A DNA stretch of 64,000 nt from Utricularia gibba (lineage: Eukaryota; Streptophyta; Magnoliopsida; Lamiales; Lentibulariaceae): contig NEEC01000015.1 of the NCBI GenBank assembly GCA_002189035.1, positions 310,001 to 374,000 of the forward strand. Direction: 5' to 3'. How positions within the stretch are numbered: the stretch's first letter is position 1; every line of letters begins with the position of its first letter. The notes beneath the pieces were generated by a model. That model was not told the origin of the DNA. It worked only from the letters and a program-made list of their open reading frames with translations, and made no database searches. Of this stretch, positions 18,584 to 63,800 are shown in pieces. Position numbers and translations under genes: made by a program.

Positions 18584-20751
18584 ATGACGGATGCCGGCGT
18601 GCCGAGGCGTTTTTTAGGCGTCAGGACTCCGATCACAGGGAAAAGGATTTACATTGTGATATTCGTTCCATTGGCGATCGGATTCGTTGTTTTCTTGGTG
18701 ATTTTCTTGTTTCTTCGTGATCGGCGATCCAAGCGGAGATGCGGTGAGATTGGGCGGAGGTTAGGGCGTCTACCGTTCGTGTGCAAGGAGTTCGTTAAGA
18801 GCGCGAACGAGAAGCAGCCGAGTGTTATTGGTTCGACAGAAATGAGCAATGCTTTCGTGATTGGGAATGTGGCGCCTGGGGGACGGCTGAAGCTGGGAGC
18901 AAGGTTGGGAGTTCGGAGAGTAAGGAATCGACTACTACGCGTAGCGACTCTTCATCGGCAATCTCAGCTTCTACTGATGGTTTGGGGAATTTTGGCTGGG
19001 GTAGATGGTATAGCTTAACAGAGCTTCAAATTGCTACAAATCAGTTTTGTAGAGGGAACGTGATTGGCGAAGGAGGGTATGGTATTGTCTATCGTGGAGT
19101 GTTCCCGGATGGCTCGATCGTCGCCGTTAAGCATCTTCTGAACAAGAAGTAAGTTTATGATAAGCTGATCGAAGGTTTAATGTCTGCCTTGATTGGGAAT
19201 TTCTTCTTTCTAATGAAAAACTTGCTTCATCTTTCATCTATCGCGTGTTTGGTGGGATTCTCCGGTTGGATCTGCATGTTGCAAGCTTTATTTTGTAAAA
19301 GGTTCTGTCTTTAAACAAACATTGGCAAACTTTGTACCTTTGAATTAACTCCACTTTAACTGTTTGCAGTTGTGTGTTTGGACCGCGCTCTTATCTTGAA
19401 GAATCTTTTCTTTCCCCCCATGTTTTCTCAGATTAGATGCCCTTTTCCTACAGTGTCTTTATTTCAATAGAGCAGTGCAGTCTCCCTCAAATTCTGTTTT
19501 GTGGTAATTTGATCTGTTAGACTGCTAAGACGTGATGAACTGCAGGGGACAAGCCGAGAAGGAGTTCAAGGTAGAGGTTGAAGCCATTGGAAAAGTTAAA
19601 CACAAAAATCTCGTGAGTCTGCTCGGGTACTGTGCAGAAGGTGCTCAAAGGTTAAAAACCACATGTCCTACCTTTTAGTTTGCTTCATCTGTGTCACCTT
19701 CGCATGATTGATCTTTGGTTTTGCACTACGATCAGATTACTCGTATACGAGTACGTCAACAATGGCAACTTGGAGCAGTGGCTCCACGGTGATGTTGGTC
19801 CTTTGAGCCCCCTAACTTGGGAGATCCGCATGAAAATTGCCATTGGCACAGCCAGGGGGTGAGCTTGATGCCATAATTGTCTGTCCTGCTCCTAGTGTTG
19901 TTCAGGATTATGTTCATTTGAATTACATTGCATTACCCCTGTTTCAGATTAGCATACTTACACGAAGGGCTAGAGCCCAAAGTGGTACACCGTGACGTGA
20001 AATCAAGCAACATTCTTCTAGACAGGAAATGGAATGCCAAGGTCTCAGACTTTGGACTTGCGAAGCTCTTAGGACCAGATAAAGGTTACGTTACAACCCG
20101 AGTAATGGGAACTTTTGGGTAAGTTTACACAGTCGCTTCATCAAATTCAAATCATAATAGCACTCACAGGTTCTGTCACTGCAGATACGTCTCACCGGAT
20201 TATGCTAGCACAGGCATGCTAAATGAAGGGAACGATGTTTACAGCTTCGGAGTTCTCCTTATGGAGATCATCACAGGGAGGCAACCTGTAGATTACTCCA
20301 AACCACCTGGAGAGGTGAACCATTAAGCCCACTACTGATCTCATCCTAATCATCATTTACAATTCTAACCAACCCATTTCGATTTCAGATGAATTTGGTG
20401 GATTGGTTCAAAGGGATGATTTCAAGCCGTAGAAGTGAAGAGCTGGTCGACCCTTTGATGGAGGCCCCCCCTCTCCACGAGCCTTGAAGAGAGTTCTCCT
20501 CATCTGCCTTCGTTGCATCGACATTGACGCCCACAAAAGACCCAAAATGGGCCAGATTGTTCACATGCTCGAGGCTGATGAACTATCCTATCGCTCAGTA
20601 AGCATCACCAATCAACCTTATTTACACCTCCCTCCCTCCCCCTCTCTCTCCTTCCACCTTCTGATCTGTGAGCAATGTTCAGGAAGCTGGGTCACTTCGA
20701 GAGACAGCACCTGTGCATTTCCAGTCCTGCGGCGACCGGTCCGGCCGATAA
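18584..20751 (+). CDS. Receptor-like Ser/Thr kinase, At4g34500 type, with two 1-bp frameshifts
   Basis: Membrane-anchored receptor-like cytoplasmic-type kinase without a large ectodomain, closest to Arabidopsis At4g34500. Exons 18584-19148, 19546-19650, 19736-19858, 19948-20118, 20185-20314, 20389-20597 and 20683-20751. A membrane segment lies near residues 22-46 ([20 protein letters not shown]). The kinase has [11 protein letters not shown] (P-loop), [22 protein letters not shown] (catalytic loop), SDFGLAK, and [16 protein letters not shown] at the end. As written the frame breaks twice: at the G5 run 18878-18882, before [14 protein letters not shown], and at the C7 run 20465-20471, before [12 protein letters not shown]. 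Exon length is 1372 nt; adding two bases gives 1374 nt, 457 aa. The APE motif of subdomain VIII reads SPD, where relatives have SPE. I infer a functional gene with assembly errors; a recent pseudogene is possible. Confidence 0.85.
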
Positions 20752-21310
20752 CCACCGCCTTAGAAGGTGCGTGCATGTACGTATGTTCTCTGTTCATAGT
20801 AAGTACTCCACTCCCCCAAGTAGTCAACACTCATTTATTCGCAAGATCAGATCCCTGACCTTCACTGCTTCCATCCATGGAATGCCATGAAACAAGCAGA
20901 CCAATACAAAAGTGATGCTAATTAGGACACCAACCAACCCAATCATTTAATCCCACGTGTGTTTGTTTGCTTTTCCTTTTACTAACCTTTGCCTTCTTGC
21001 ATCCCAATTCCCATGTGTGTGCCGTTGTACTGCCTATTAATGAAGTACATTCAGAGGGGTGAAAGTGGTGAAACCCAAATGCCGCATCCGCCTTTTCCGG
21101 GACACATAGAAAGATGCCAGTACAGTGCAGTACACTCTACCATGTACTCCACATTAGGTTAAAAACTTAAACTCCAATCTGTCACTATTTACTCCGCGGT
21201 AATCCGGTGAATGAGAATTTACAGTCCATTAACAATGGCGAAGTACAGCAATGAAGTCATTGGGTGCCACAATTTCAATGGGGCGGCGCGCCTCCGCCGC
21301 GGCGCATCAT
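20752..21310. other. Spacer between convergent kinase genes
   Basis: Probable 3' UTRs of the receptor kinase (+) and the PERK gene (-). No other feature seen. Confidence 0.5.
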
Positions 21311-22310
21311 CTACTGGGAGTTCCCGTGAGTGGAGCGCGTGAACTCGCCCGTGGCTCCAAGCTCGCTGCTGGTGTACTCTTGGCTCGAGGTTGTCGTTGT
21401 CCCTCCTCTGTAATGCCTGTACTCGAAATCCGAGCTGCTGCTCGACCCCAGCAACGCGCTCTGCCCCGGCCTCACGCCGTCGTGGAGATCGTCTAACGAC
21501 GCGTCTCCCTCCAGTGCCCGGACTATCTGTTTCCGCATCCGTATAGAATAAATCAGGTGCTGTTGAAATAGGAGATGTGGGTAGTGAGTTACCTGGCTCA
21601 TTTTGGGGCGCCGGCGAGCGGATTGGCGAATGCAGGCGGCGGCGCAAGAGACCATACGAAGCATCTCATGGGGATCGTAGTTTTGGCCGAGCTTGGGGTC
21701 CACCAGTTCCTCGTAGCTTCCTCCTTCTGTGACCCTCATCAAGATCGGCCTCGCCTGCACCACGCACACACTCGAATAACACCGGCAGCAGCAGAAACAA
21801 CTCACTGTAACAGACACGACGGCGCGTACGTACCCAGTCGACCAACGTGTCATCCTCGTCGTCCACACGACTGATGTCGATCGGCCGCCGTCCCGTGATC
21901 AGCTCCAGAAGCATGATTCCGTACGAGTAGACGTCGGACTTCTCAGTCAACTTCCCCGACGATGCGTACTCCGGTGCCAAGTACCTACCCCCGTTCAATA
22001 ATCGTGGCCAATCATTTTCAACAATATTCTTTTTTTCAAAAAATAAAATAAATTCAAATGCAGTATTACCCAAATGTCCCCATTATTCTAGTGGATACGT
22101 GCGTGTTGGTGTCCGAGGACAGCTTCGCCAGTCCGAAGTCAGCTACCTGCATTTTTATTACATTAAAAAATCATTTTTTTCATATAAAAAAAAAGAAAAA
22201 GAAATTTTGCATGCCTTGGCCTCAAAGTTGTCATCTAGTAGAATATTGGCAGCTTTGATATCTCGATGAATGATACGAGGATGGCCTGAATATTATAATA
22301 ATTAGTTATT

Positions 22311-22357
<47 letters not shown>

Positions 22358-23752
22358 TGGGAATAAAAAATAGGTTACAGTCTTCGTGAAGGTATGCGAA
22401 TCCTTTGGCGGACCCGAGAGCAATCCGAAGCCTTGTAGCCCAATCCATTGAAGGAGTACGGCCGCCTGCAATTTCAAATATTTTAGTATTTTTTTAATGA
22501 AAAATATTCTGTTAGTGAAAAGGGGGTGTACCGTGGAGGTGATGCTCGAGGGTATTGTTGGAAACGAATTCGTACACCAGCATTCTTTGATTTCCGGCGA
22601 TGCAATAACCGACGAGGGAGACGAGGTGGCGGTGGTGGACGCGGCTGATGATCTCCACCTCCGCCTGGAACTCCCTTTCGCCTTGCCCGCTGTTGGCCTT
22701 CAGGCTTTTGACCGCGACTTCCTTCCCGTTGGGGAGGACGCCCTTGTGCACGAACCCGAACCCGCCCTGGCCTAATAGATTCGCGGCCGAGAAACCGTTT
22801 GTCGCCGCCGCGAGGTCGTTGTAGGTGAAGCTGCTCTGGTTGAAACCCAGTACGACGGTGGGGTGCGGCGGAGGGAGGGCGGGGTGGTGGGGTCCGGAGA
22901 AACCGGCGGAGCTCATGTCGCTGCTGCACATCATCGGAGGTGGAGGAGGCGGCGGGGCGATCCAGTTCTGCTCCGAGCTGACTCCGGCGCTCCCGGGAGG
23001 TGGTGGGAGTTTGGACATGCCGCTGTTCTGCCAATTTCCAGTGGATTGACCGCCGTAGTAGTCGCCGGCACCGCCGGGGCGAGCAGCTGATCGAAAACTA
23101 CAACGTTTCATTGACTGCCATTTCCGGTAAAATCTTATGAATCACGTAGGTACGTACCCATGTTCGGGTGGGATTCGGGATAGTATTCCATGTGGTTGTC
23201 ACTGGGACGTCGTTTCTTCCTCCGGCAACAGCATACGAAGATGACGATCATGAGTAGGAGGAGGAGTCCTGCGCCAGCAGCCGCACCGGCGATGATTGCT
23301 CTCTCGTGACCTTCATTCGACGAGGAAGACCCGCCGTTTCCCGAGGAATGGTTTCTAGACCGCGGCGGTGCCGGCGCAAGCCGTGAATCACTATCCGGCG
23401 ACCCAGACCTACGTGATGACTCTGGCAGAAGCGGCGGGGGTGGGGAATATGCATCACCGTTGTCCTCACCATCAGGTGGAGGTGGCGAATTATCCGAATC
23501 GGAGTCTGCACTTTCCGGCGGAGGTGGAGGTGGAGAAGCTGCATCATCCGACGTGGGCGGCGGCGGCGACTCATCCGACGACGGAGGAGGTGGTGGCGAA
23601 GATGACTCCGAGTCCGTATCCTCGGGCGGCGGAGGTGTTGCTGACCCTGAAGATTCAGGCGGCGGAGGAGAAGAATCCCCTGACTCCGGCGGTGGCGGAG
23701 ACGAGTCAGATGACCCCGTCGGCGGCGGAGATGAGGCAGAATCGGACGACAT
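21311..23752 (-). CDS. PERK: Proline-rich extensin-like receptor kinase (PERK)
   Basis: PERK family receptor kinase, proposed to monitor the cell wall through its extensin-like ectodomain. Eight exons on the - strand (23158-23752, 22532-23086, 22379-22465, 22215-22285, 22070-22146, 21834-21984, 21593-21754, 21311-21526) sum to 1914 nt, 637 aa. Residues 1-145 are Ser/Pro-rich with repeated SPPPP blocks; then a membrane span ([20 protein letters not shown]) followed by CCCRRKKRR. The kinase shows [76 protein letters not shown] and [10 protein letters not shown]. The C-terminus is Gly/Ser-rich and ends GNSQ. The intron between exons 4 and 5 has a GC donor (AAG|GCATGC). Arabidopsis PERK4/5/6/7 are the likely relatives. 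Confidence 0.93.
22312..22353 (+). repeat. (TAA)14 microsatellite
   Basis: Perfect trinucleotide repeat of about 42 bp within the PERK intron between exons 3 and 4. Likely polymorphic. Confidence 0.95.
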
Positions 23753-24943
23753 CCTGAAAAGCCCCCCTTCCCTTCTCTACAAGGAAACACACAACAGAAC
23801 AGAAACCCAACTACAGAAGAAAATTCACAAGGGCGCGGGCGCTTCCTCCTCACCGTACGGAGAAGGGCAGGCCGAAGAGGAGACTCAACACGCGCATCCC
23901 CAATACTTTCAAAAAATAGAATTAATAAAAATGTAAACAAATATTAGGAGATATATTTGCCCCCTTAATCTCCTCAAAAGGCGCCCAATGAGCTGTTTTA
24001 TTTCCTATTTTTGGGAAAATAAAATTGTTTTATTATTATTGTTATTATTTAGTATATCGACCGTACGATACTCCGTAGCACCTGCAGCAGCGCACCGTCA
24101 ATGTCAGGGGGGGTTTCAGCCGGTTCCTTTTTAGATTATTATCAATCATTTTAATTAATTATAATTTAATTTTGGATGTGTCATGAGGAATACAGGGGTC
24201 ATTTAGAAAATTGAGAATTTGTACTTTTTACCTCACAGATTACAACTTCATTTTTATGGATATAGTTTGTCAGTCACACTTCAAGTTAATGTCATCATAA
24301 ACAGTTTAATCCCTAATTTTCAAAATTATATTATAGAATTTTCAATTTATTTTTTTATAAATAGTTTGATTTCGAATTTATGAAATTTTATATTTAATCC
24401 TTGATGTTGTGGTTTTCTGTTGCACGATTTTGATAATTGTTTGGATATTTATTGTATATTTAATTTCTAATACTTAGGTATTAATTGTATATTTAACTTC
24501 TCATTTTGGTTTATTTTTAAAAATTTTAAAAACTCTTTAGATTATTATTGTACAATTTTGACAACTTGAGATGTTTTTTTTTTACAATTTTGAAACTTGA
24601 GAATCGATTAAATTCAAAACCGATAATTTATATGAATTGATTATAAATTGTTTAGATCCAAATTCAATTTCGTCGAAATCAATTGGGGTTTCGATTCATG
24701 AAGATATTTCCAATTGACTCGTCTATCGACCCGTCCCGGACGAAGGAAGAGAGAAATGTAGTGCGCGGACCGGGGGACATTTACGAACTAACCACACGCT
24801 TTTTGAAAGCGGTAGAAAAAAAAGGGATAGGGTAAATTAGTTTGTTGAGGGATGGTAAAAGTATGCGTGTTCATGTATTTAGACAGTCAGTTTTAGAGAG
24901 AAAACAACACATTCTGTGTATCTCTCTTCCCGAGAGGAGGAAT
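23753..24943. other. Divergent spacer PERK / DUF7086
   Basis: Shared upstream region of two divergent genes. From 24120 to 24700 it is very AT-rich with no coding sequence or clear repeat structure. Confidence 0.5.
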
Positions 24944-25876
24944 ATGGGCAGCGGCACTGATACGCCGTGCAACATTTTTAGGGATGCTCCGCCGCCGCCG
25001 CCGCGTCTGACGGAGGAGGACCAATCCAGGAGGGATTCCCTGAGGTGTGACGGCAGTTTTCTGACGCTCGGCCCGTCCACGGAGTTGAGTCTCAATCTCT
25101 CGTCACTGTCGCAACTCCGGAATCCAGTGCCGGGGAGAAGTGTGAGACCACTGGAGTGGTTAAATCTTAATCTGTCTCCACCGAGGGAGTGGACATCGGG
25201 GAGTCTGTTCGCGTCAACACCCCTACAAAGACCCTCTGACGGTTCCCCCATATTGCGGTCGCGGTCGCGATCCCGGTCACCGGCGGGGCCGCTTCCCTCT
25301 TTCCGTCCGCCCCAGATAATCCCGACAGCCCGCCGCGCCCCTTTAAAACTCATCGCCAAAGGCAAGTCCGAAACCATTGAGCCTCCCTTCCCATGGGCAA
25401 CCAATCGGCGGGCGACGGTGCATGCGCTGTCACATCTTCTCTCCCAAGGCGTGACGTCGATCAGCGGCGAGGTGCAGTGCAGGAAATGCGACCGCGTGTT
25501 CACAATCCAGTACGATCTGCGGACCATGTTCCGGGAGATCGCCACCTTCGTCGCCCTCGAAAAGGACTCGATGCTCCAACGCGCCCCGGAGCATTGGGAG
25601 AATCCCACCCTCCCGCCCTGCGAGTTCTGCAAGACCGAGGACGCCGCCCGCCCCCTGATCGCCCCCAAGAAGCGGAACATCAACTGGCTGTTTCTGTTCC
25701 TGGGTACGCTTCTGGGGTGCTGCACTCTCAGCCAACTCAAGTACCTCTGTAAACACACCTACAACCACCGTACCGGAGCCAAGAACCGGGTACTCTTCTT
25801 GGCGTATCTGGCCATGTGCAATCAGCTTAATCCTGACCCCGCCTTCCAACTCGGTAACGTACTGTGTTTTTCCTGA
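24944..25876 (+). CDS. DUF7086 domain protein
   Basis: Single-exon gene, 310 aa from the ATG at 24944 (an in-frame ATG 34 codons upstream is less likely, lying in probable 5' UTR). Function of the family is unknown. The N-terminal half is low-complexity with an RS-like stretch (RSRSRSRSPAGP) and ELSLNLSSLSQL, which resembles an LxLxL repression motif. The C-terminal half is the conserved domain: PFPWATNRRATVHALSHLL, GEVQCRKCDRVFTIQYDL, PPCEFCKTED, KKRNINWLFLFLGTLLGCC, KYLCKHTYNHRTGAKNRVLF. The paired CxxC motifs (CRKC, CEFC) suggest a zinc-binding fold; this is inference. Codon third positions are notably G/C-rich compared with the flanking AT-rich DNA. Confidence 0.8.
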   Translation: MGSGTDTPCNIFRDAPPPPPRLTEEDQSRRDSLRCDGSFLTLGPSTELSLNLSSLSQLRNPVPGRSVRPLEWLNLNLSPPREWTSGSLFASTPLQRPSDGSPILRSRSRSRSPAGPLPSFRPPQIIPTARRAPLKLIAKGKSETIEPPFPWATNRRATVHALSHLLSQGVTSISGEVQCRKCDRVFTIQYDLRTMFREIATFVALEKDSMLQRAPEHWENPTLPPCEFCKTEDAARPLIAPKKRNINWLFLFLGTLLGCCTLSQLKYLCKHTYNHRTGAKNRVLFLAYLAMCNQLNPDPAFQLGNVLCFS

Positions 25877-27183
25877 TTACTCAACTTCCATGCTGTTTCA
25901 ATCCCACCATCCTTCATCTTCCAGGTTTCCGTTGATCCATCGTTCCGGTTCCTGCTGCATCCTCATCGTTTATGTTAAAACTACTCTAAGCTTCTAGGGT
26001 TTGTCTCAGTCGAGAAGAATGGCTTTCTATCGTGGATCGACTAATGGCGTTTGCGTCTCTTTTCTGGATTGTTCTTTTTTATTGAATTCATTTGAAATTC
26101 ACAATTCAATCCAATATTCACTTGTTCTGGAAGCTTCCGGATTAAATAATTTATCATAAATACTTAATTAAATTGTGAATATTCGGAAACTCCATAGACC
26201 ATGGAAGTCAGGCTGACCAAAGGAGCATAAGACGACGCGTTTCAATCCAAAACACGAATGAATACTCAGGATGATCACAACACATACAACAACGTGATCA
26301 TTGTGTCATTGCTAACTAACCGCCTTCTTGCTTCCTAAACCCGCACTAATAATCATTACTTTGATACCAAATGTTAGAATACATCATCATTTAACATGAT
26401 ATTATTTGATTCGTATTTTCAATCTTCACGATTTTACGTTCTTGCTTTCTAAAAGAAAATCCTCATAAAAGATTAAAGAAGATATCTCAACCCAATGGAT
26501 GTAGTATTCGTCCAAAGGTACTTATAACCTTCTTTGGCCCTGACTCTTCTGTTTCTTTGGAAACTCAACGTCTAGATCATATTGTATGTCTCTCTTACAT
26601 ATTATGAATATTATGGGTGTCAACATTTTTAAATATTAGGGCCTTCGGGCGGTAGGAAACGGGTATTTAGTATTGTGGGGCGGGGCGGGGCCGTGAGGGA
26701 AGGGCGGTGAGATACTTCAGGCCGAAGTTTCTGCAGTGGAGTTGGCTAGGGGTTTTTTTTCTTTTTTTTTTTGGTTTTCACAGCTCTAGGGACACGTGGA
26801 ATGGCGTGTCCGGCTTCCTGGAAGGCCGTTTCTTGAACCCCAGCGCGTTTGCTTTGCCATTTGTGTATTTTATTGTGCTTCTGTCTGCGTGCAAGCGTTT
26901 TCTTGATTTCAACAACGAAGGACACCCATTATCATCTTCAACCGTTTACCCTTTCTCTCCAAGCCTTGTTCTGTCTTCGATTGTCGTTATAAATCTACCC
27001 CATTCCCACGTACAGTGAACCCCATTTCCCGAATCTGAAGCAAAATCCTCAAGTTCCCTCTTCTGGTTCTCGACTAGATTCATCGTTTTCTTTGTTGGGA
27101 TCGGAGTTTTTCCCATCTCGGGAAGTTGAGAGTTTCGATCTTGAAGCAACAGCATTCAGCTTTCTTTGGAAATCGAACCGAAA
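25877..27183. other. Spacer containing an LTR remnant
   Basis: No gene seen. Contains the LTR/primer-binding-site remnant at 26360-26625 and a possible T-rich leader of the next gene from about 26740. Confidence 0.5.
26360..26625 (-). mobile_element. Possible copia-like LTR plus primer-binding site remnant
   Basis: Read on the - strand, 26625-26372 (254 bp) begins TGTTGACACCC and ends TTCTAACA, with matching TGTT/AACA ends. Two bases later comes TGGTATCAAAGT, 10 of 12 matches to the initiator-Met tRNA primer-binding site TGGTATCAGAGC used by many plant Ty1/copia elements. No gag-pol coding sequence follows towards 26000, so only an LTR and the PBS edge survive. Inference from end structure only. 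Confidence 0.4.
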
Positions 27184-28278
27184 ATGGGAAGCAATAGCAG
27201 CAGGGGGAGAGCGGAGACCGACGGAGAAAACAACCTCCATATCTCTACGGAGCTCTGTTCCTACGCGGAAGCCTGCCGCCTCGACGTAGATCTCCACACA
27301 TTCGACACCAGTCTTCGGGATAGAACCAACAGCGTCATTACGGCCCTGGCCGCCGGAGTGGAGGTACGGACGGTGTCTCTGGGTTCGTTGAAGGATGTGA
27401 CGGGATGCTTACTGGAGATGAATCAGGAGGTGGTGAGAGTGATTTTGGATTGCAAGAAAGATATCTGGGACAACGGCGAACTTTTCTCCCTTGTTGAAGA
27501 TTACTTCGACAACAGCCTCCATACGCTTGATTTCTGCTCTGTTCTTGAAAAATCCCTGAAGCGTGCACGCGACACCCAGCTTCTGATCCTGATGGCGATC
27601 CAGGAGTTCGATGAGAAGCAAGACCACTCTAAAATGCTGCAAGATTTGAAGCGCTTCAAGGAAACAGGGAATCCCTTCACAGAGGAGTTCTTCCATCTTT
27701 TTCGGTCTGTTTATCTGAAGCAAATCTCTTTGCTAGAGAAGCTGCAGCAGAAAAAGAAGAAGCTAGATCACAAGCTGAAATCCATCAAGGGGTGGAGAAG
27801 AATTTCGAGTATCATATTCGCAACTATATTCGCCGCGGTGGTGATCTGCTCCGTGGTAGCGGCGGCATTGGCTGCGCCGCCGGTAGCTGCTGCGGTCGCC
27901 GCAGCCACCGTGATTCCTCTGGGTTCAATCGGAAAGTGGGTGGACTCCCTGATGAAGAATCACGAGAAAGAGGTGAAGAGACAGAAGGAGATCCTGAACT
28001 CGATGAAGGTGGGAACGTATATAAGCATCAAGGATCTTGATGGGATCAGAGTTCTTGTTGATAAGCTGGAAATGGAGCTTGAATCCATGATCAAGAACGC
28101 CGATTTCAGTCTTAACGAGAACGCGGTGAAGATTAGCGTGGAGGAGATGAAGAAGCAAGTCACCGTTTTCATGAAGAATGTGGACGACCTCGGGGCGCAG
28201 GCCGAGAATTGCAGCCGGGATATCCGCCGGGCAAGGACGGTAGTTTTGCAGCGGATCATTAAGCCACCGGTTAACTGA
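27184..28278 (+). CDS. UPF0496 (DUF677) membrane protein
   Basis: Single-exon gene, 364 aa, of the UPF0496 family, closest in my memory to Arabidopsis At4g34320/At4g34330. Biochemical role unknown; family members include stress-responsive and integrin-related-like proteins. The start at 27184 (MGSNSSRGR) is preferred over 27166 because relatives begin MGN/MGS, which also allows N-myristoylation at Gly2. Conserved blocks are [55 protein letters not shown] and, at the end, [18 protein letters not shown]. Two hydrophobic stretches form a hairpin around residues 212-250 ([19 protein letters not shown] and [18 protein letters not shown]). The frame is intact. Confidence 0.9.
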
Positions 28279-29014
28279 TGCCAACGTTGACACGTGGAAG
28301 ACAATGATTGGTTAAATGATGCTTCCAACTAGGAAAAAAATGATGCTTGACTAACTGTTCTTGCTATTGCTTCGAAGCATTTTTTTAATCCTTAATAAAC
28401 AAAGATTCTTATTATTCATTCTAAGTATAATTTATAGAAATTATCTATAATAAATTTTTAATGATGATAAATCAATGTTGTTTTATATATCACACTTTAT
28501 GTCATATATAATCGACAAAATGCAAACAATTCAAATAAATTGAATATTTATCATAATAGTTATTAGACAACATATAATTTATTCATTACAAATGATTAAT
28601 GATGACATGTATCAATACATTTGATTTTTCAAATTTATAGGAATACATAGTTTGTTTATTCAATGTTTCAACTAATTATATCTCATTTAAAATTTGTATT
28701 TAAAATTAAATATTTCTAACTATTTTTGTCCTAAGAAAATAATTGTTGGTGTAAAATCCCAAATGATAAGTAGATGATAGTTATGTTCAACATCTCCTAT
28801 TTAATCAAACGTATTTTATTTTATGGTAGAAACCATAAATAAAATTATGAATATTGAATGTTTAAAACAACTAACATGATACAAATAAGATACAAGTCAT
28901 GAAATTCATGGTTGAAAATCATGTATCTGACCAAGTCAATGTGGTGTAATTTAAAATGTGTGACTGATTTCCAAGGAATTATTATTTCCTTTTTCAATTT
29001 AAATGAATAATTTA
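28279..29014. other. AT-rich spacer
   Basis: Strongly AT-rich; 3' flanks of the UPF0496 and DC1 genes. Nothing else seen. Confidence 0.5.
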
Positions 29015-29721
29015 TTATTTGGAAATCAACTGGCCCACTACGCCGGCGATGAGGGTGGTGGGATCCCCTAGAACGGCGGAAACCACCACCTGCAACGCTA
29101 GTGATGCCACGTCGGAATACCTCTGTGCCTTGCCTTTGGTTTTGGAGTGGCACACGTGCGTGTCCAGCGTGGACCTCAAGCTGGGGAGCCGCCCTCCCCC
29201 TCCGCCGTAGATCTCCCGGCAGCTGTCAACCAGGATCTCCTTCGCGCACGCCACGTGGAGGTTATATTTTTTACACGACGACCGGTAACACCAGCCCCTA
29301 CCCTTCCTCCCGCACCTGTTGCAGGCGGCCGTCACGTGGGCGTATAGATAAAGCTTCACATCCCCGCCGTCGATCGCCATCGGCAGTTTAGCGCAGCAAG
29401 GGTGGAGGTCGAAGCCGCAGAGCTTGCAGTGGTACGTGAACCCCCCACGCGCCTCTCGCACGCGTTGCAGTTGCGCGCCTCCGGCCCCGGGGGGCGGCTG
29501 AGGAAGTCGAAGGCGCATTTAGTGTAGAAGGGGTGGGCGACGGAGGCGGAAGGCACGGCGCAGTGGGCGTGGAGATCGAAGTTGCAGGCGGCGTGGACGC
29601 ACCTGTAGACGGCGCCGATGCCGGCTTCCTTGCAGCCGTCGCATTTAAACGGCGCAGTGGCGTGGCCGAGCTTGAGGATGTGGTTGGGGTGGCTGAAGTG
29701 GAGGATATCGGTGAATTTCAT
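29015..29721 (-). CDS. DC1 (cysteine/histidine-rich C1) protein with 1-bp frameshift
   Basis: Plant DC1 zinc-binding protein; family members bind diacylglycerol-like ligands or act in stress and defence, but the substrate here is unknown. Three C1-like units are seen: HPNHILKLGHATAPFKCDGC...CNFDLHAHC, HPFYTKCAFDF...NCNACE...YHCKLCGFDLHPCC, and CNRCGRKGRGWCYRSSC...LHVAC. A hydrophobic C-terminal tail follows (SLALQVVVSAVLGDPTTLIA). The frame breaks inside the second unit at the C6 run 29441-29446 (G6 on the coding strand). The open region is 707 nt; one added base gives 708 nt, 235 aa and restores CERRVGGFTYHCKLCG. I infer an assembly error in a single-exon gene. Confidence 0.82.
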
Positions 29722-30359
29722 TCCCTCTTCTCCGGCTGAGACGGAGAAGGTGAAGGGAGGAGTAGTTATAGAGGGGATTCGGAGGGGATGACCGGATTGG
29801 AAGGAATCAGAATGTCGCTGAAATTATCTGAGGCTCTGGGTCTGTTCAGAGATTCTGGCTTGGGCTTCTTTCTTCACTTTCCCATATTCAATATTCATAT
29901 TCATTTTTGTCCTCTGTGGGGATGCTTGCTGAATAAGAAATACTCTCCTGCTCCATTTTGTTATTTTTTTATTTTTTGGAACGAACAAAATTATTATTAA
30001 AATGATAAATTTATTTTTTATTAGGTAATAAAAATAATATATTTAATCTTGATTCACATAATGATTATTATAATTTGAAATAGTGGAAATGCCTAATTTT
30101 GGAAATAATATATATTATTATTTTTTATTTTTAATAGTGTGGAATAATAATAATAATATTTTGAGGATTATTTATATATTTTGAATAAAGGGATATTATT
30201 GCTTAATTTTCTCTTCTTTGTTTTTCTGAATGTGGTAAAAAATGACGGCCCGTCCGGATTGCGAGCCCATGAGGAGGCTGCCCACTCGCCGTGAATCAGG
30301 CCTGCTGATGATGATGTAGTCGCACTGGGGAGGCACACAAGCTGTTCGATGAAATTCCC
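29722..30359. other. Divergent spacer DC1 / PPR
   Basis: AT-rich from 29940 to 30220. No gene seen. Confidence 0.5.
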
Positions 30360-34777: not shown

Positions 34778-34998
34778 CAGAAGCAGAAGCAAACTAACAG
34801 CATCTTTGCACATTTTTTTGAGACCCTTCACCTGAGTTCATGGTTCATGTATATTTCCTCCCGTTGGCCATTTTGATCAACTGTCGTGTTAAGGCCCTGC
34901 TGCCATTAGCTGCATATATGACAACTGCCTATTCAGAAAAAATGGAAGTTTACTATGAGTTGAGATTGATCGAGGAATGTGAATATTTTGTAAGAATA

Positions 34999-35007
34999 CA
35001 ATAACCG
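34999..35007 (+). promoter_or_regulatory. CAA start motif upstream of tRNA-Arg
   Basis: CAA at 34999-35001, 7 nt before the mature tRNA. A CAA in this position is the usual transcription start context of plant nuclear tRNA genes. Confidence 0.55.
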
Positions 35008-39960: not shown

Positions 39961-40385
39961 CTAGTAATAGTAGTAGTGGAGGGGCTTTTCCACGTCCACC
40001 ATGTCGCTGCCCCTGAGCCAGTAGGAGACATCCAGAGAAGCTGCATCCTTGGGGATGCTTTCCATCACCTCCTCCTGTCCCGCCGGGAAGTATATGCCGG
40101 AGACTGGATGCGGCCTCCAGCAGACCACCGCCTCCTCCCCTTCTCCGATCCCCTCGCCTCGCTCTTCCCCTTGTTCTCCCTGGCCAACTTGCTCATGCAG
40201 CGAGCACCCAGGGAAACTCCTCGCCTGCAAGACATAGCACACAACAGGAGACAGCCCATGAGACCCAAGTAAAAGGAAGGGAAGGGGAGAGGGGGGGGGG
40301 GGGTAGAGTACTCCGGGAACGCCTTCTGGATCAGCAACCGGCGGGTGTTGGTGATTGCTTGCATCACCATCAGACGGCTGCTCAT
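39961..40385 (-). CDS. LEA-like small protein with 1-bp frameshift
   Basis: Two exons, 40312-40385 and 39961-40224. Exon 1 encodes MSSRLMVMQAITNTRRLLIQ, a basic organelle-type presequence; exon 2 starts RGVSLGARCMSKLAREN, then after a frame break gives EEAVVCWRPHPVSGIYFP, KDAASLDVSYWLR and VEKP. The W-x-P-H-P-x-S/T-G-x-Y-x-P pattern recalls group 3-type late embryogenesis abundant proteins (LEA_3, and the At5g17165-like set), stress proteins often located in mitochondria. The break is at the C4 run 40137-40140; length is 338 nt as written and 339 nt (112 aa) with one base added. Family assignment is from memory of short motifs and is only moderately secure. Confidence 0.55.
40291..40303 (+). 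repeat. G13 homopolymer in LEA-like intron
   Basis: Thirteen consecutive G (C on the sense strand), lying just after the donor site of the single intron, which is 87 bp long. Confidence 0.9.
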
Positions 40386-43279: not shown

Positions 43280-43707
43280 TCAGCCAAGGCTAATCTTGAG
43301 TTCAAGGTCAGGGGTCGGCGCCAGGTTAAGGTCAAAATCCTTGCCGACGGCGCCGCCGGAGTAGCTACCATCGCCGCTATACGAAACGGTGCTCGTCCCG
43401 CTGCCGTCGCTGCTCACCTTTCCGCCCACCGCGCGGTCGTAATGCTTCCGTTTGTGGCCGCCCAGCGCCTGACCCGTAGGAAAATCCTTGTGACATATAG
43501 AGCACTCGTGACCACGGCGGCTCTTCCCGGCCGGGTCCACCCCCACGGCGCTCTTCTTCCTGTTGCTGTGACACGTCTTGTGCCCCCCAGCGCCTGATAC
43601 GTCGGAAAGCTCCTACCGCAGACGCCGCACCTGTACTTCTGATCGTCGTAGACGTCGTTCCCGGTTTGGGACGCCCACCACTCCGCCGCCGCTGCGTCGA
43701 CCGCCAT
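43280..43707 (-). CDS. C1-2i C2H2 zinc-finger EAR repressor (ZAT type), 1-bp frameshift
   Basis: Two-finger plant repressor of the ZAT/AZF group, typically induced by abiotic stress. Both fingers have the plant QALGGH signature: YRCGVCGRSFPTYQALGGH and HECSICHKDFPTGQALGGHK. The C-terminal FDLNLAPTPDLELKISLG contains the EAR motif DLNL, which recruits TOPLESS-type corepressors. The protein is short (142 aa) and I do not see the usual N-terminal B-box or L-box. The frame breaks in finger 1 at the C6 run 43583-43588; 428 nt are present and 429 nt would be in frame, giving HKTCHSNRKKSAVGVD between the fingers. Upstream DNA carries five CACGTG boxes. Start chosen at 43707 (MAVDAAAAEWW), followed directly by the first finger. 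Confidence 0.85.
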
Positions 43708-52515: not shown

Positions 52516-54076
52516 TACAAGAAACCAAAAACAAAGAAACCCACAACGACAAACAGATATACAAACACCAAGAACTCAACCCAGTATTCAAAAAAGTACT
52601 CTACGACAAAAACACCACTCGGGATTCACACAGTTAGTTCATCATTTCATCAAATACAAACCAATCACAGGAATGATCCACAAAAATCAGCGGGGTCTGT
52701 ATTCAGATCAACGAGAGAGACTGAAGGAAAAAAAAACGATTAAAAAAAAGCATTGAGAGAAAATGGAGCCAAGGAGGGAAGGAGAAACAGAAGCTCTATA
52801 AAATCGTTCTCAAATTGAAAAATGGAAAGTCGCGGTTCCGTCAGAAGGGAAAACGCCGCACAGCATCGACATCCTCTGTAACGGTACTTTGCGTGACATG
52901 GCACTCCGAGCAATCACCAATTTGCCCCCGCACGGCATCGATCAGTTCGACGGCCACCGCCGCGCACCTTTCAGGACCGTCAAGCATTTACGTTTCCGCC
53001 ATGTGGGAGGAAAAGCGAGGCAGCTGGCCCCACACTCTATTAAATATAATATTTTTACAGAAAATAAACCAAAATAAGCCCATGTAGTGGTACTGGGAAA
53101 GCAAACGTCATAGGGTGGGCCCCCATCCAACGATTGGCGCACAATTTGTATACTATTTTCAAATTAAATTATTATTGTCATTATTCTCATCCGGGCCGGG
53201 TTCCCAAATGAGAGCCAGACCGGCCCACGTTGTGAGAAAGTGGGCTCGGGGCAGGGCTTCAATTGGTGGATTAATTAAATTTAACTGCAAATTAATCATA
53301 AAAAATTAAGAAAGAAACCGTAAAATGATTATAGAATATGGTATATTAGAAATGTGGCCATACTCCGTTGATTGTGTGATAAAAGTAGCCACTTTCATTT
53401 AAAAAAATTTGTCTGAGTGTATGAAAGAGTATGAGAAATTGACCACATTTTTAAATGATACGAATAGAATATGGTTTAGAAATTATATCCAGTACTCGCA
53501 ACCTAAAAATATTTCATACTGAAAAGCTCACATCAAAATTCCAAAAAAAGCTTCAAAATGACATACTGTGAAGTTTATACATTCAAACAATTTAGAAAAT
53601 ATTGTGTTCTAATCAAATGGTAAAACTTATGCATCATTTGTTTGCATAGATCTATTTCGTTTCCATCATCAAATTTTATGGCAACTTCAAAGTTATGTGT
53701 GTTTGAACAAAAATAATATTAAGATGATGATGCATTGGAATCACACAAAAAATGCGTTAAAAAAATAAATATAAAATTATTGGGAATTTTGAAATATATG
53801 AAAAAAAAAGAATTATTGGGGAGAAATATTCCTGTGGTGTTGGATGAATGAGCCATGGGATTTGAAACTTGATGAGGAGTTGGGTGCGAACGTGTGGCTC
53901 CGAGGAGGATAGCAAAGCGATAAAGCGACTAACGAGGAGGCGACACGTGGCAGATAACACTCCCCAACTTGAGCAAACCACACTATTTCCACAAGCCCCC
54001 AACCCTTATCTGCCTGCCTTCCTCGCCATTCACCCATCTCCCAAATTCCCACCTCCGGAGCCCTAAGAGGAAAACC
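52516..54076. other. Spacer, 1.6 kb
   Basis: No supported gene. GGGCC/GGCCCA motifs lie at 53115-53230. AT-rich without coding potential from 53270 to 53800. The last 100 bp are probable ferredoxin 5' UTR. Confidence 0.45.
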
Positions 54077-54940
<864 letters not shown>

Positions 54941-56678
54941 ATGGCTCCGAGGAGGCTGAGACAGGCTATTGGGGCAGTCAAAGATCATACCAGCATAGGT
55001 CTGGCTAAGGTCGGTAGCAGCGTCTTCTCGGACCTGGAAATAGCCGTCGTGAAGGCTACCCGTCACGGGGAAGCTCCGCCGGACGATCGTTACGTCCGAG
55101 AAATCCTCGGCCTGACGAGCCACTCCCGCTCCCTTGTAAATTCGTGCATCGACATCATCGGGAAGAGGCTCAATAAGACCAAGAATTGGGTCGTCGCCTT
55201 GAAGGCTCTCATGCTCGTCCAGCAGCTGCTCTCAGAGGGCGGTTACCCCTACGTGGAGGAGCTTTTCTTTTCGACACGGAAAGGGACTCGCTTCCTCAAC
55301 ATGTCGGAGTTCAGGGACTCGGATGCTTGGGACTTCTCGGCATTCGTTCGCACCTACGCAATGTACTTAGATCACCAACTCGAGTTCACGATGCAGGGGT
55401 GCCGGAGGATGAAGCGACGCCGGAGCTACCACGACGGCGTTTTTGATGTCGGATTCACTGCATCTGCTACCGTTTTGAGGAGAGGCACACCCGTTCGTGA
55501 ATTGGCAGATGAAGTCCTTTTCTCCATGGCACATCATATGAGACAGCTTCTGGAGAGGTTCATAGCCTGCAGACCAACGGGTATGCATCATCATGAATGT
55601 CCATTACAATCTTGCATCACTACAAGTGAACAAGAATCATGAATCCGTTTGCTGAGTTTCAGGTGCAGCAAAACACAACAAGCTTATTGCAGCAGCTCTG
55701 CATCCAATCGTACTGGAGAGTTTCAAGCTGTGTGATGGGATGAATGAATTAATGGCGACACTGACTGAGAGATTTTCTGACCTTCAACCGCATGATATGG
55801 CTGAGGTTTTCGACATTTTCTGCCGTGCTTCGATTCAGTACGAGGAGCTAGGTGCTTTCTACAAGTGGTGCAAGGTTGCTGGGATTGGGGGGAGTTTCTC
55901 AGAGTACCCTGAAGTTGAGAAAATCCCAAACAAGAAACTTGATATGATGGAAGATATTATTCGCCAGAAGTCAGCTATGTTGAGAAACAAGAAAGGTTGC
56001 ACCCCAGAATCAAAGCTGAAAAGCGGAGAAGAGAAGAAAGAAACAGAGGAAGAAGATAACTTATTTTCAATCAGGGCATTGCCACCACCACCACCGCAAG
56101 AAGTTATTGAGATAGAAGAAGAAAAGCCGCAAGAAAACAACAAAGATTTCCAGGAGGTAGGCGATTTGTTAAACTTCAGGGACGATGTACCGATCAAAGA
56201 GCAAGCAGAAGACCAAATGGCTCTTGCTTTATTTGATGGTGAACAGGGAACATCTGCCCCTAAAAGTGCAAAGAATCCATGGGAAGCTTTGAAGGAATTA
56301 GGTGATGATTGGGAAACAGCTTTAGTTCAATCTGCAAGCCATCTATCAAGTCAGCCAACGTCATTTGCAGAAGGTTTTGATAAGCACCTACTTGATAGAA
56401 TGTACATCCAGCAGGCAATGGCAAAGACCAGTTCTTATACCCGACCAGAGTCCATCGAAAAGGGGATCGATCCATTTGCTGCTTCCCTTTACATAGCACC
56501 ACCAGCATATGTTCAGATGGCTGAAATGGAGAAGAAGCAGAAATTGATGTTAGAAGAGCAATTTATGTGGCAGCAGTATGCCAGAGATGGGATGCAAGGG
56601 CTGACTGGAATTTCGAAACTGCAACAACAGTATCCTCATGGATATATCACAGGAGTTTACACAAGAACAACATGGTGA
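54941..56678 (+). CDS. ANTH-domain clathrin assembly protein (AP180/CALM family)
   Basis: Clathrin adaptor of the plant PICALM/AP180 group that recruits clathrin and cargo SNAREs to PtdIns(4,5)P2 membranes. Exons 54941-55580 and 55663-56678 sum to 1656 nt, 551 aa. ANTH domain: LRQAIGAVKDHTSIGLAKV, the ATRHGEAPPDDRYVREI block, KTKNWVVALKALMLVQQLL, GTRFLNMSEFRD and FVRTYAMYLDHQLEF. An acidic, low-complexity middle follows with LPPPPPQEVIEIEEE, DLLNF and NPWEALKELGDDWETAL; the C-terminus has DPFAASLYIAPPAYVQMAEM and MWQQYARDGMQG. DPF is an AP-2 appendage-binding motif and DLL[N]F resembles a clathrin-box. The start at 54941 is preferred because MAPRRLRQAIGAVKD is the family N-terminus. Frame intact. 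Confidence 0.93.
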
Positions 56679-57266
56679 AAAATTGATCAAAAGAATTGCT
56701 TTCTGGGTTCAAAATACAACCATAAATGAAGAAACTTGTAAAAATCCAAAAGCACCCACAGAGAGTAAAACCCAAAACTAGCGGATTTCAGGGTATCCTC
56801 GAAGATTGCCATTGTTTCATACATAAAGCTTCAAAAGGTTTACGAGATTACCTTCAATTTCTCTACTTTCCCGTGTTTGAGAGCGAAACACTAATCAAAT
56901 ACACAGTGAAGCAAAAAAGGAAAGAAGATGGCATCACCAACGGTCGGCCCAACCCGTGTGCTCAAGTTTGGGCTGGGTCGGGTTCATGGTTGAAGGAAAC
57001 CTAGGTCGACTTTCTAAAGAATACCAAAAAGGAAGCCAATTTCCGGGTTTTTCATCCAAATAAAGACACGAAGTCAGAAAACCAAAGGAAGTGATATCGG
57101 AGTAACCGGAAAATACTTCGATCACAACCGAAAAGGGCTTCAATTTTGAGGGTATGTGTTGACATTTTTGGTTTGATGCTCAATGCTATCCGCATTTGTA
57201 GGGGTTTGGTAGTTAAAGGTAACCGATGGCGCATTCATTAGTTCCAGAGGCTTCACGGTGAGGCAG
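56679..57266. other. Spacer and carrier 5' UTR
   Basis: No gene seen. Contains a short upstream ORF at 57226-57261. Confidence 0.45.
57226..57261 (+). promoter_or_regulatory. Upstream ORF before mitochondrial carrier
   Basis: ATG to TGA of 11 codons (MAHSLVPEASR) ending 5 nt before the main start at 57267. If in the mRNA it could lower translation of the carrier. Presence in the transcript is not shown. Confidence 0.4.
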
Positions 57267-59200
57267 ATGGACGAGTTGTCGAAGAATAAAATATTCGCAA
57301 TCCATGCGGGCGCGGGCAGCGCCGCCGTTGCTCTGGGAACTGCTGTAACATACCCTTTTGATACTCTTAAAGTTCTGATTCAGGTTTGAATACTGATTGA
57401 AATCCTGCTTTGTGTGTGCATTTCTTTTGGCCTTGTGCTTAACGGGAAACTGAAAACAGGTTGGTTCCAGTGCTAAACAGAAACTTTTGGCGGCTGATGT
57501 TACTTACAGGGTTCTATTTTTATCAGGTGTATCAGGTAACTTAGATTAATGCTGTGGATTGATCGTGATTTCCATTTCCATATGAGAGTGATACTGTAAT
57601 GTGACATTGCACGTGCTCTCTGGTTCTAAATTCTCATAATGAGTTGAGGAATTCAGCTTGTCAGTCATCTTTGGCCTTGTATTTTTGTGAACCTTGTGTC
57701 CTTCAGGGTTGTCCCGGTTTCCTGTGTATAGCCATGTAAATGCATTCTAGTTGATTAGGATGACACCTTTAAGGCAAGTTTTGCTATTTCATAAACTTAT
57801 AAACCCTTGTAGGTTTATATAATGGTGTGGGATATTCGGCCTTGGGAAGGACTCTGGGCATTGGGACTCGGTTTGGCGTTTATGAGATGTTAACTGCATT
57901 CTTCAAAGGCAAGTTCATTTTTTGTGATTGCCATGGTATCAATGTTCTCATCTCCTTACTTCATGATTAGGCTGAAATAGAATTCAAAAAACTCATCAGT
58001 GCCCATGATATGTAGCACTGTTGTTATGCTTGTTGCCAACCAAGGCCTAGTATTGGATGTTTCAATTTCTGTCTCTTGTATTCCTGTCACTGATGCATTT
58101 TCATGTTCTGTGTGATCTTTGACTGCCGTGCAGGATTTTGATCCACAGATTAGTTTTAAATTTGATATCTTCCTAAAAATGTTTGCTTTTTTTTTTTTTT
58201 TCATCAGATGGTCGTAGAGATGATTACGTGTATGTGTCTGAGGCTCTAATGGCAGGATTCGCTGCTGGTGCAATGGAGTGTCTTGTAACCTCTCCTTTTG
58301 AAATTGCTAAAATTCGTTCTCAGGTGGCTTCTGCTTCTCGCACTGCAAGCCTTCAATCCGTTGTTGAAAAGAATGCTGTTCCTCCCTTAGCTTCAAGGAT
58401 ACTGCCCCGATATTCGGTGGATATGATAGCGATGAGTAACTCTGTGGAGCTCTTGTCTGCCTTGAACACCAGACGTGTAGATTTGCTTGAAGCTTTCAAA
58501 CAGTATCCATGGATGATGACTGGCTCCGGTAAATCACCACCAGTAGAAAATGTCAGGACTTTTAGAGACATTGTTTCTTTAGAAGGATGGGCTGCCTTGT
58601 GGAGAAGTCTCAGGGCGGGCATTGTCCGAGATTCGATTTTCGGTGCCGTTTTTTTCTCCTCCTGGCGAATCTTACAACTAGAGCTTAGAGACTGGAAAAT
58701 CTCAAGAATGAATCCCTTACCAAGGTTGCTCATTTTTCCATTGTTTGCTCTGCATTCAGTCTCAGCCGTGTTTCCTGATCAGAACTCCGGTGGTTCGGTA
58801 CATTCAGGTATTACAGTGAAGTCCCCCCTTGTCTCCTCTAGCTATTAGCCTCACCGCCGGCATTTCTGGAGCAATTGCTGCTGCTGCCTCCCATGCTTTT
58901 GATACAACAAGAACACGCTCACAGTGCTACGTTCTGCCAAGGTATGCTACTTCTACAAGAACACCTTTTATTCTCGTGCTGAGAATGCACATGATTATGC
59001 AGCATGTATCCATGGAGAGGCGATTCCTGAAGTGGCCTCGACGTCCCGGAAAACGATTCGAGCGACTCACCGGTATCCACCCTTCTGATAGAAATCTACT
59101 TCTGAAGGGGATATGGCTGCGGATGGGTCGCTGCGGAGTTGCATCCTCTGTCATTGTTGGGAGTTATCTGTTTGCTGTCCAGCATCTTGTTTCTAGCTGA
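57267..59200 (+). CDS. Mitochondrial substrate carrier family protein with 1-bp frameshift
   Basis: Member of the mitochondrial carrier family (inner-membrane solute exchangers, three repeats of two helices); substrate unknown. Exons 57267-57383, 57460-57535, 57813-57908, 58208-58724 and 58817-59200. Repeat 1: AVTYPFDTLKVLIQ (PxDxxK signature). Repeat 2: LVTSPFEIAKIRSQ. Repeat 3: AASHAFDTTRTRSQC, where the usual Pro of PxD is Ala-Phe-Asp. The end is RFERLTGIHPSDRNLLLKGI and GSYLFAVQHLVSS. The third intron has a GC donor (AAAG|GCAAGT). The frame breaks at the C6 run 58823-58828: 1190 nt present, 1191 nt (396 aa) with one base added, giving EVPPLSPLAISLTAG. A 21-residue stretch after CYVLPR (YATSTRTPFILVLRMHM...) is not recalled from relatives and could be a short unspliced intron. 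Confidence 0.85.
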
Positions 59201-60828
59201 GGACTCTTGATCCGGAGACGGCAGAGAGGCCACACCCGGTAACTGACTCCAGCTGGTGCCTGGTATGCGTTTGGAAGAAGATGAACTTCCTTTGCGCCGT
59301 ACAACTGTATCCTTCCGCCGTGCCGTCCTGAACCAGGAACCGAACCGGGAATAACACCGTAAGGAGATTTTTAGATTAATTCGAATCTATGATTTTTTGG
59401 ATTTTATTTAATAATTTTTATACAAAATATTGAATTTTGAAGTTTTGAAATATTAAATTTAGAGAATTATTTTTATTTGTCTAATATTTTTATAATAAAA
59501 ATGAAATCAGTAAAAGGGATTTAATTTTAAAATATGATTAAATTGAATAATTAATTAAACTCAATTTTAAAATAAATTATGATGGTATTTTATGTAAATC
59601 ATTAAATTAATAAAGATTATTACTTTTTAAGTTATTTTTTAAAAAATAACTTAAAAAGAAATGATAACAATCAAGTTGAGTTTTAAAATAATATATAAAA
59701 GTGGTTTTATATCAAAATTGCTTTAATTAAAATTCATTTATATGTGTATGTGTAAATTTTAAGAATAACTCAATTATGTAAGTTTTGAAAATATTATTCT
59801 AAAGTAATGATAATAAAATTAATATATACTCAAAAAAATTTAATGATAATAATATATATAATTTAATTTTCAATGATATTTGTGGAAATTGAAAGTAATT
59901 GTGTTTTGAATAGTGATAAATAATGTGGAAATAAATACAAATATATTAAATTTTGACTAATTATAGTAGTCATTTATTGGTGAAATTGAATACGTTTTTG
60001 GAAACCCTTGTTCAAAACCTACTAAACTACAACATTTGACGTAAAAGACAGGCGACGGTGGGCCCTACGTAGGAAACCATGACCACTAATCCTACTACTA
60101 ATACTAATTAATTACTAATCAAAGGAATAAACCAATGTGAACAAAGCAACATTATTAAGCCATTGACTATTAAATAAAATTAGGAAAAAAAAAAAATGTA
60201 TTCGTGCTTATGAAATATCTTTAAAATGTAATATTATTAAAAAAAAGATTTTTGTCTTTTTTTCCCCAGAATTTTCAAATGAAAAAAATTCTACAGCAGT
60301 TTGGTTGAGTCAAGGCGTGAAAAGAAAAGGACGAAAAGCAGCAATCGCGTTTGACCGATCCACGTAAATGCAAATGCTTTCATCGTTTTCCGTCAAACGA
60401 GCTGTCTGCGGAATTTACTGGGGAAATAGAAATACAGCTCAACATCATACATACAAAATTGAGGGAGAAAGAGAAATACAGGAGCTCTGTTATTTCATTG
60501 TTTTTTCTCGTCTCTAGAGAGGCCTGCATCCATTCGTCACATAAACTCTGCACCAGTTCAACAAAGACCACTTTTTTGGTCAAGATTCATCTGGGTATTT
60601 TGTTTCTCTTGATTCCTGAGGGTGGGTAAGGTGAACCCAGTTGGGGTGGGTGTTTATCGTACTTGCTTATTGTTGTCTTGCATTTGATATTATTTTGATG
60701 CTTTTTCTTTTTCGGAAAATTGGTGTCTTGTGGATCAGCTTGGCGGCTGGTTACGCTTATGTGGTTGGAGGATCTATTGTAGGCTTGATGGAGAATCTGG
60801 GATTTTAGCGAGTTGGATCCTAAGTTTT
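59201..60828. other. AT-rich spacer and SERK 5' region
   Basis: 59380-60260 is very AT-rich with a perfect palindrome at 59623-59658. The leader of the SERK gene probably starts near 60480. No coding sequence. Confidence 0.5.
59623..59658. repeat. 36-bp perfect palindrome
   Basis: Left arm CTTTTTAAGTTATTTTTT and right arm AAAAAATAACTTAAAAAG are exact reverse complements with no spacer. It could extrude as a cruciform, or be a foldback element core. Confidence 0.9.
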
Positions 60829-63800
60829 ATGGATCGTTGGTCCACAGTTATGATCTTGAGGTCCAGATTTCTCTTCTTGGTTCTGGTGTTCGCAAGATTT
60901 TATCAGGGTTCTTCCAACGGCGAAGGTATTTTTTGCTAATTCGTTATCAAATTTATTTTATTCGTTCTGGTTGATGTGTTATTTCTTGTGCTTCTGGTTC
61001 CTCTGCGAGTATGGTCAATTTTTTGAAAGTTGACCTGGAATTCGTTTTAATCAAATCTGTTGCCTAATTCGGTTAGGATAGAAAGTGATGGATTGGCGGC
61101 ATGCTATTGCTTTAAAGCGGTGTACTGTTGAGAGTACTATGTGTGTAGAAGCACTAGTATCTGTTTCTTTCAACAAGATTCCTAGTTTCTATTTGTATGA
61201 TAGACGCCATTGATGAGTACTAAACTTGAACTGTAGACCTAAATCTCATATGCTATGCTCCCGCTCCCTTACCAGCTGTGCCATCCATCTCTACCGGTCC
61301 TAGTTGAATGAGGCCTTTTTTCTCAACTTTCTGCTTAGTGGAGTTTGGGTTTACATTTAGATGAAAATAAGCTCTTTGCTTGTCTTTGAACAATACCTTA
61401 TATGCTTAGAAGATCACATACATCTTGGAAGGGTTTGATACTATAATGCGAAACATTGATATTCACAGGGGATGCCTTGAATGTACTGAGAAGGAATTTA
61501 GTTGATCCTAACAACGTTCTTCAGAGTTGGGATCCTACTCTTGTCAATCCTTGCACTTGGTTCCATGTAACGTGCAACCAAGATAACTTTGTGACACGAG
61601 TGTAAGTTGTTTTCATGATCTCACATTCTTGTCTGGCTTCTAGCTTCAGATGTCTTTGTATAAGACATTAATTAACATCTTTTTACAGAGATCTCGGTAA
61701 TGCTAATTTATCTGGGCAACTAGTCCCTCAGCTTGGTCAGCTGTTGTATTTGCAGTATTTGTAAGCACCTTTCTTTGAATACAGATTTAATCGACTTGCT
61801 CTTTATTTGGCCTCAGTTGTTGAGAAATATTCTCTTTCCTTTCTGTTTCAGGGAACTTTACAGTAATAATATAAGTGGGAGAATTCCAACTGAGTTGGGT
61901 AACTTGACCAACTTGGTTAGTTTGGATCTTTATCTGAACAGACTAAGTGGGCCAATTCCTGAAACACTGGGAAACCTACGAAACTTGCGCTTCCTGTACG
62001 GTTTACACTTCGTTGTTCTACTCTTTGCCTTTTGTCCCTAGAACTCGTGCTCTATCCTGTATGCTGTTATTTGGAAGTGCTGCTTCCAAAGTTTTATTAT
62101 TATGGATTTGAAAATCCATGACTTCTGTCCCGTTTGCTGTTTCTAAACCCCTTGTTGTGCATTGTGTACAAATATATCGTGACTGAAAATTCTTTTTGTT
62201 TATCCTGAACGTTGTTTTCTCTCTGAAACATGTAGGAGGCTCAACAATAACTCGTTGTCTGGAGAGATTCCCGTGTCTCTAACATCAATCACAACACTTC
62301 AAGTCCTGTATGGATCAATTCAGATGATCATTGATCTTAGTCTTCATTACACTACGAATTCTAATATACGCATGTGTGCATGTCTGTGCTTGTATCTGCA
62401 GTGATCTTTCAAGTAATCTGCTCACAGGAACCATTCCTTTTAATGGATCGTTTCAGCTTTTTACACCTATCAGGTTTATATTTTACATATATTTATCGAA
62501 GATGAGGTGTTTTGAAAATTTTTTAGTTGAGGCAAACGATTCTGTGTTCTTTCAGTTTTGCCGGAAACAACTTGGCACCCCTGCCCGCATCTCCTCCACC
62601 CCCGGCTCAGCCATCCACTCCCTCTCCCTCAGGTAGAGTTCTTGAAATCGTATAAAAGTTGCAGTTTATGATGGTTTCGCTTTTAATGTGTTAGTGCACG
62701 GGCACCAAACACACCGTACAGAATCCTGACTGAATACCCAAGTTTCTTGCTCATGAATGCTGCATTCCAGACTGAGAATCTTCTGCTAGAATAGCATCAG
62801 TTACATATTCTTCATCTTACAAAAAAAAAATGATGGCTTAAAAGGAATTATAATTGCAGTCGGCAACGGAGCCACTGGAGCAATTGCTGGAGGTGTTGCT
62901 GCCGGGCTGCTGTGCTGTTTGCTGCTCCAGCAATTGTGCTGGCTTGGTACCGAAGGAGGAGGCCGCAAGATCATTTCTTTGACGTGCCCGGTTTGTCAAT
63001 TTAACATGATGCATCCCTGTACACTTGCTTTCAGTTATCACTCAGTATGTCTCTCTACTTTCAGCTGAGGAGGATCCTGAAGTTCATTTGGGGCAGCTTA
63101 AACGATTTACTCTGCGTGAACTCCAAGTGGCAACGGATAACTTTAGCAACAAAAACATCCTCGGCAGAGGTGGATTTGGTAAGGTTTATAAAGGGCGACT
63201 AACGGATGGGTCACTAGTTGCAGTCAAAAGATTGAAAGAAGAGCGCACTCAAGGTGGAGAGCTGCAGTTCCAAACAGAGGTCGAAATGATCAGCATGGCT
63301 GTGCACCGGAACTTACTCCGACTGCGCGGCTTTTGCATGACCCCAACAGAAAGGCTGCTTGTATATCCATATATGGCCAATGGAAGTGTTGCCTCGTGCT
63401 TGAGAGGTACCGGTGACCGTAGTCTATGCTGTTATGAGCTCCTACTTACTCTTACTGAGCTGCTTAATTTGCCTTCTCAGAGCGACCGGAATCACAGGAG
63501 CCCCTTGTCTGGCAGAGAAGAACAGGCATAGCACTCGGCTCGGCAAGGGGATTAGCGTATCTTCATGATCACTGTGACCCCAAAATTATTCACCGTGATG
63601 TCAAAGCCGCGAATATACTGTTGGATGAGGACTTTGAAGCCGTGGTTGGCGACTTTGGTTTAGCAAAACTGATGGACTACAAGGACACTCATGTCACTAC
63701 AGCTGTGCGTGGAACGATTGGTCACATAGCTCCGGAGTACCTTTCCACCGGCCGATCATCGGAGAAAACAGATGTGTTTGGCTATGGAGTCATGCTTCTT

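Follow-up and report, generated by a model that had tools for sequence, protein, structure and literature searches.

Single-base reading-frame breaks, mostly at G/C runs, in a window of the Utricularia gibba genome assembly are very likely consensus-sequence errors

Introduction

The closest described case is that of residual indels in PacBio CLR assemblies built with HGAP and Quiver, in which single-base homopolymer deletions split genes and create false pseudogenes (PMC4888979; for long-read assemblies generally, PMC12007338); in one Quiver-polished PacBio assembly, Illumina reads revealed 561 homopolymer deletions (PMC4888979). The breaks described here are of the same kind, but they differ from those errors in their bias to G/C runs and in their high rate in coding sequence, which is about one per 3 kb in GRAS genes. 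The 2017 assembly of Utricularia gibba (Lan et al.) was made with HGAP from 88x SMRT coverage and has an N50 of 3.4 Mb (table in PMC5793159), and the N50 of the assembly used here is also about 3.4 Mb, provided that no larger contig exists.

The window is a stretch of 64,000 nucleotides from the assembly used here (GCA_002189035.1, contig NEEC01000015.1, positions 310,001 to 374,000). A preliminary description had claimed nine coding breaks in it, all at runs of G or C, each needing exactly one more of the same base to restore the sequence of its gene family, and had explained them by homopolymer under-calling. All nine runs were found at the positions given there, in the following genes (window coordinates):

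18583..20620, plus strand: receptor-like kinase gene with two breaks, near 18878 and at the C7 run 20465-20471 (three-frame reading, paralogs)
20465..20471, plus strand: C7 run in the kinase exon of that gene, one base short, with a 1-nt gap adjoining the run against both paralogs
29015..29721, minus strand: DC1/C1_2 domain gene, single exon, broken at the C6 run 29441-29446, where the C1_2 profile match is split
39961..40385, minus strand: putative LEA_3-type gene, one base short near the C4 run 40137-40140 (frames, LEA_3a profile)
43280..43707, minus strand: C2H2 zinc finger gene with two fingers, interrupted within QALGGHK at the C6 run 43583-43588
54077..54509, plus strand: leaf-type 2Fe-2S ferredoxin gene, with breaks at 54343 and 54485 (Fer2 profile, PDB ferredoxins, alignments)
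58213..59199, plus strand: last exons of a mitochondrial carrier gene, with a break at the C6 run 58823-58828 (frames, Mito_carr pieces)
62854..63018, plus strand: transmembrane exon of a SERK-like receptor kinase, one base short at the G3 run 62904-62906

Results

Placement and sign of the breaks in the window

Three-frame translation has each gene resuming in another frame after the break at all nine sites. The number of bases to add was calculated as (u minus v) modulo 3, with u the codon offset upstream and v the offset downstream, and one base is short at 18878, 20465, 29441, 40137, 43583, 54343, 54485, and 62904. The window genes were also aligned to paralogs from the same assembly using a custom local protein-to-DNA aligner that allows frameshifts, and these alignments back a one-base loss at 18878, 20465, 29441, 54343, 54485, and 62904. 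The one-base call at 43583 rests on the zinc-finger motif, cut between QALGG and HK, together with Pfam pieces, and that at 40137 on Pfam pieces. The paralogs of the receptor-like kinase, DC1, SERK-like, and ferredoxin genes are all uninterrupted where the window genes break, and each break amounts to one codon with a base missing. No further stops or decay were found on either side of the breaks in the window genes by comparison with paralogs and profiles. Several neighboring genes are full-length in a single frame (DUF677 profile matched over 1-336 of 336, DUF7086 over 2-134 of 134).

Frame reading and paralog alignment thus bear out the existence of the breaks in the given sequence, and the call of one missing base stands at eight sites and fails at 58823, where there is one base too many or two are missing. 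The runs are present as claimed, and G/C runs of 6 or 7 hold four of the nine breaks, but counting G3 and C2 as runs is weak evidence; runs of 2-3 are common by chance. At 54343, 54485, and 62904 the missing base lies in or beside a wobble position and is not necessarily one more of the run's own. Family sequence is kept on both flanks of the breaks, as claimed; at 58823, however, one added C is followed by a TAG only a few codons on.

Receptor kinase, DC1, and SERK-like genes

The receptor-like kinase gene, which we take to be At1g01540-like, has paralogs (on contigs C2 and C451) that are uninterrupted at both of its break places. Its first break does leave one base short, but neither frame meets a stop for about 190 nt (18799-18990), so that its siting in the G5 run at 18878 is a choice and the earlier placement there was a guess. 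The paralog alignments put this break near 18884-18888, in a poorly conserved stretch, and one of the two writes the shift as two extra bases.

Both paralogs of the DC1 gene (on C317 and C1) are continuous at the position of 29441-29446, and those of the SERK-like gene (on C3 and C98) run uninterrupted through the 10-residue stretch at the 62904-62906 break. The DC1 paralogs, L066 and L067, also have a gap of about 70-76 bases and a frame change after CLR and before RCGRK, where the window gene (29300-29350) has no intron; to judge from these sequences, an intron was probably lost or gained between the window gene and the paralogs.

LEA-like and zinc finger genes

The LEA-like gene is the weakest case, with only low-scoring LEA_3 matches; the LEA_3a profile crosses the junction only with the two pieces joined, at a score under the curated cut-off. 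The intron of this gene contains 13 G at 40291-40303 (C13 on the gene strand), a run whose stated length is open to doubt in view of the error pattern. For the zinc finger gene, the zf-C2H2_6 match (2-19 of 27) ends at the break and HK then follows in the other frame, in which the second finger is whole.

Ferredoxin

The Fer2 profile matches the ferredoxin gene at 2-38 in one frame and at 38-77 in the next, and the two pieces abut directly at the 54343 break. At the second break (54485), TIETHKE becomes TIETTRS, while the corrected frame ends in HKESEVI and a stop; solved ferredoxins in the PDB have THKE at the matching place. Both breaks were recovered in alignments to L031 and L032, the relatives used being root-type (C402 and C412:2268745).

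The other Fer2 matches in the assembly are two root-type ferredoxins ending in VIHTHKE, a distant Fer2 protein, a root-type-like fragment, and an unrelated iron-sulphur protein. No second leaf-type ferredoxin was found among the Fer2 matches, which leaves the window copy as the only one. The root-type-like fragment (L037, C1:3883054-3883158) lacks the N-terminal half; it may be a genuine pseudogene, or else one exon of a copy that is incomplete.

Mitochondrial carrier

At 58823 the carrier has an upstream frame offset of 0 and a downstream offset of 1, which calls for removing one base or adding two and not for adding one; the previously given length of 1190 plus one base could not be reproduced. 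No second copy of the carrier was found in the assembly. Further along (58931-59002), a GC-AG boundary (58946-59002) fits the frame rather than a nearby GT donor, the alternative being one more base missing at GG. Since the GC-AG intron keeps the frame, we do not claim an extra break near 58942.

GRAS and KCS genes outside the window

Because the domain of GRAS genes is as a rule free of introns, a profile match in two pieces suggests that the frame is broken. Across the assembly (100.1 Mb in 516 contigs), the GRAS profile matched at 70 places, with many of the matches being the two halves of a single gene, and 18 of about 42 GRAS loci are split. These 18 were aligned to their nearest intact paralogs, and KCS loci were added. 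The pooled set was limited to isolated breaks with well-matching flanks (n = 24; 19 outside the window and 5 inside), which left out the tandem KCS locus L079 and non-isolated breaks.

Loss of exactly one base accounts for 21 of the 24. For each break, the interval able to hold the shift was set against equally long intervals placed at random within that sequence (2000 placements). G/C runs of at least 3 were touched by 19 of the 24 breaks against 5.5 expected, a number reached in 0 of 2000 random placements, and G/C runs of at least 6 by 6 breaks against 0.2 expected. A/T runs of at least 3 showed no excess (7 breaks, 6.9 expected). Breaks away from runs of at least 3 were seen at 54485 and at L049, L054, and L055.

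In the 48 kb of GRAS sequence there are 17 confident breaks, which become more frequent as G/C runs lengthen: the number of breaks per G/C run was 7 of 672 for runs of 3, 2 of 178 for runs of 4, 1 of 32 for runs of 5, and 4 of 9 for runs of 6, while none of the 53 A/T runs of at least 5 in the same sequence was touched by a break. The GRAS loci L045, L052, L053, and L055 carry several breaks each, and some such multi-break loci may be true pseudogenes among the errors.

Duplicate contigs

Some loci were assembled twice: C316 (38 kb) corresponds to part of C412, and C112 to C127. Over 37 kb of such duplicates, G/C runs of at least 4 are one base apart in 13 of 138 cases, versus 17 of 674 for A/T runs (p = 0.0005). 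In a GRAS gene shared by C316 and C412, two C runs are one base shorter on C316, and the open frame has 412 codons there as opposed to 615 on C412. The duplicates also differ by 57 substitutions in 17.6 kb, and therefore possibly represent two alleles. The discrepancies within the assembly are of the kind expected, but errors are mixed in them with real allelic differences. No second contig was found for window positions 53900-59300 and 59400-64000.

Discussion

The breaks in the window are almost certainly errors of the consensus sequence, mostly under-calling of G/C runs, and not biology. What was observed directly is that the breaks exist, that they usually go in one direction, that they favor G/C runs, and that many contigs carry them. 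Noisy long reads, a technology we infer, are the probable source of the assembly; its consensus step would undercount, and occasionally overcount, the length of G/C runs, and a miscount inside an exon would shift the reading frame and make an intact gene look broken. The genes of the living plant would then be intact. The under-calling interpretation of the preliminary description is supported, breaks of the same type being present on many other contigs, in genes of the GRAS and KCS families; because the same fault occurs in other genes across the assembly, the window breaks are very likely reading errors rather than dead genes. Counting against consensus error are the opposite sign at 58823 and the few breaks that lie away from runs of at least 3. 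About one break per 3 kb is also high for an 88x assembly, and may reflect poor local coverage or polishing, or part of the signal may be something else.

That the genes are true pseudogenes, i.e., that single bases were really deleted in a plant genome that is compact and losing genes, is unlikely. Intact paralogs in several of the gene families could cover the loss, and some GRAS loci do have several breaks, but conserved sequence is kept on the flanks, and the direction and G/C-run bias are the same for unrelated genes spread over many contigs, A/T runs showing no excess. For the carrier and the leaf-type ferredoxin no second copy was found; two real frameshifts in the sole leaf-type ferredoxin found would be difficult to square with a plant that is green, though the assembly could be incomplete. 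We consider it very unlikely that the deletions are real through a mutational bias of the clone to lose single bases from G/C runs (e.g., by weakened mismatch repair), with many genes truly frameshifted or heterozygous. It is highly improbable that the assembly simply took a frameshifted allele at each site, the other allele being intact: alternate contigs differing also by substitutions do exist, yet the indels between duplicates favor G/C runs, as ordinary polymorphism does not, no alternate contig was found for part of the window (53900-59300 and 59400-64000), and so many broken alleles together are not to be expected.

Mistaken gene models, in which a small intron takes the place of a break at some sites, have just as slight a chance. 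Spliced out as an intron, a 34-base GT...AG stretch at 58823 (GTATTACAG...CTCTAG) would bring the two frames together. Usual plant introns are longer, and this one, which would remove part of the carrier domain, matched by Pfam from LSPL onward, was rejected as too short and as cutting into that domain; it would also leave the other eight breaks unexplained. Programmed frameshifting or RNA editing that restores the frames is scarcely credible, with nothing except the breaks themselves in its favor, while the paralogs need no shift and the unrelated genes have only the run in common.

Consensus error, as the preferred reading, makes this finding a data-quality warning, sound as such and ordinary as biology. 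With 18 of about 42 GRAS loci split, this assembly would yield distorted gene counts and distorted claims of gene loss unless it is corrected with short reads or transcripts. For Utricularia gibba, whose compact genome and gene loss are well known, the distortion matters for conclusions on both.
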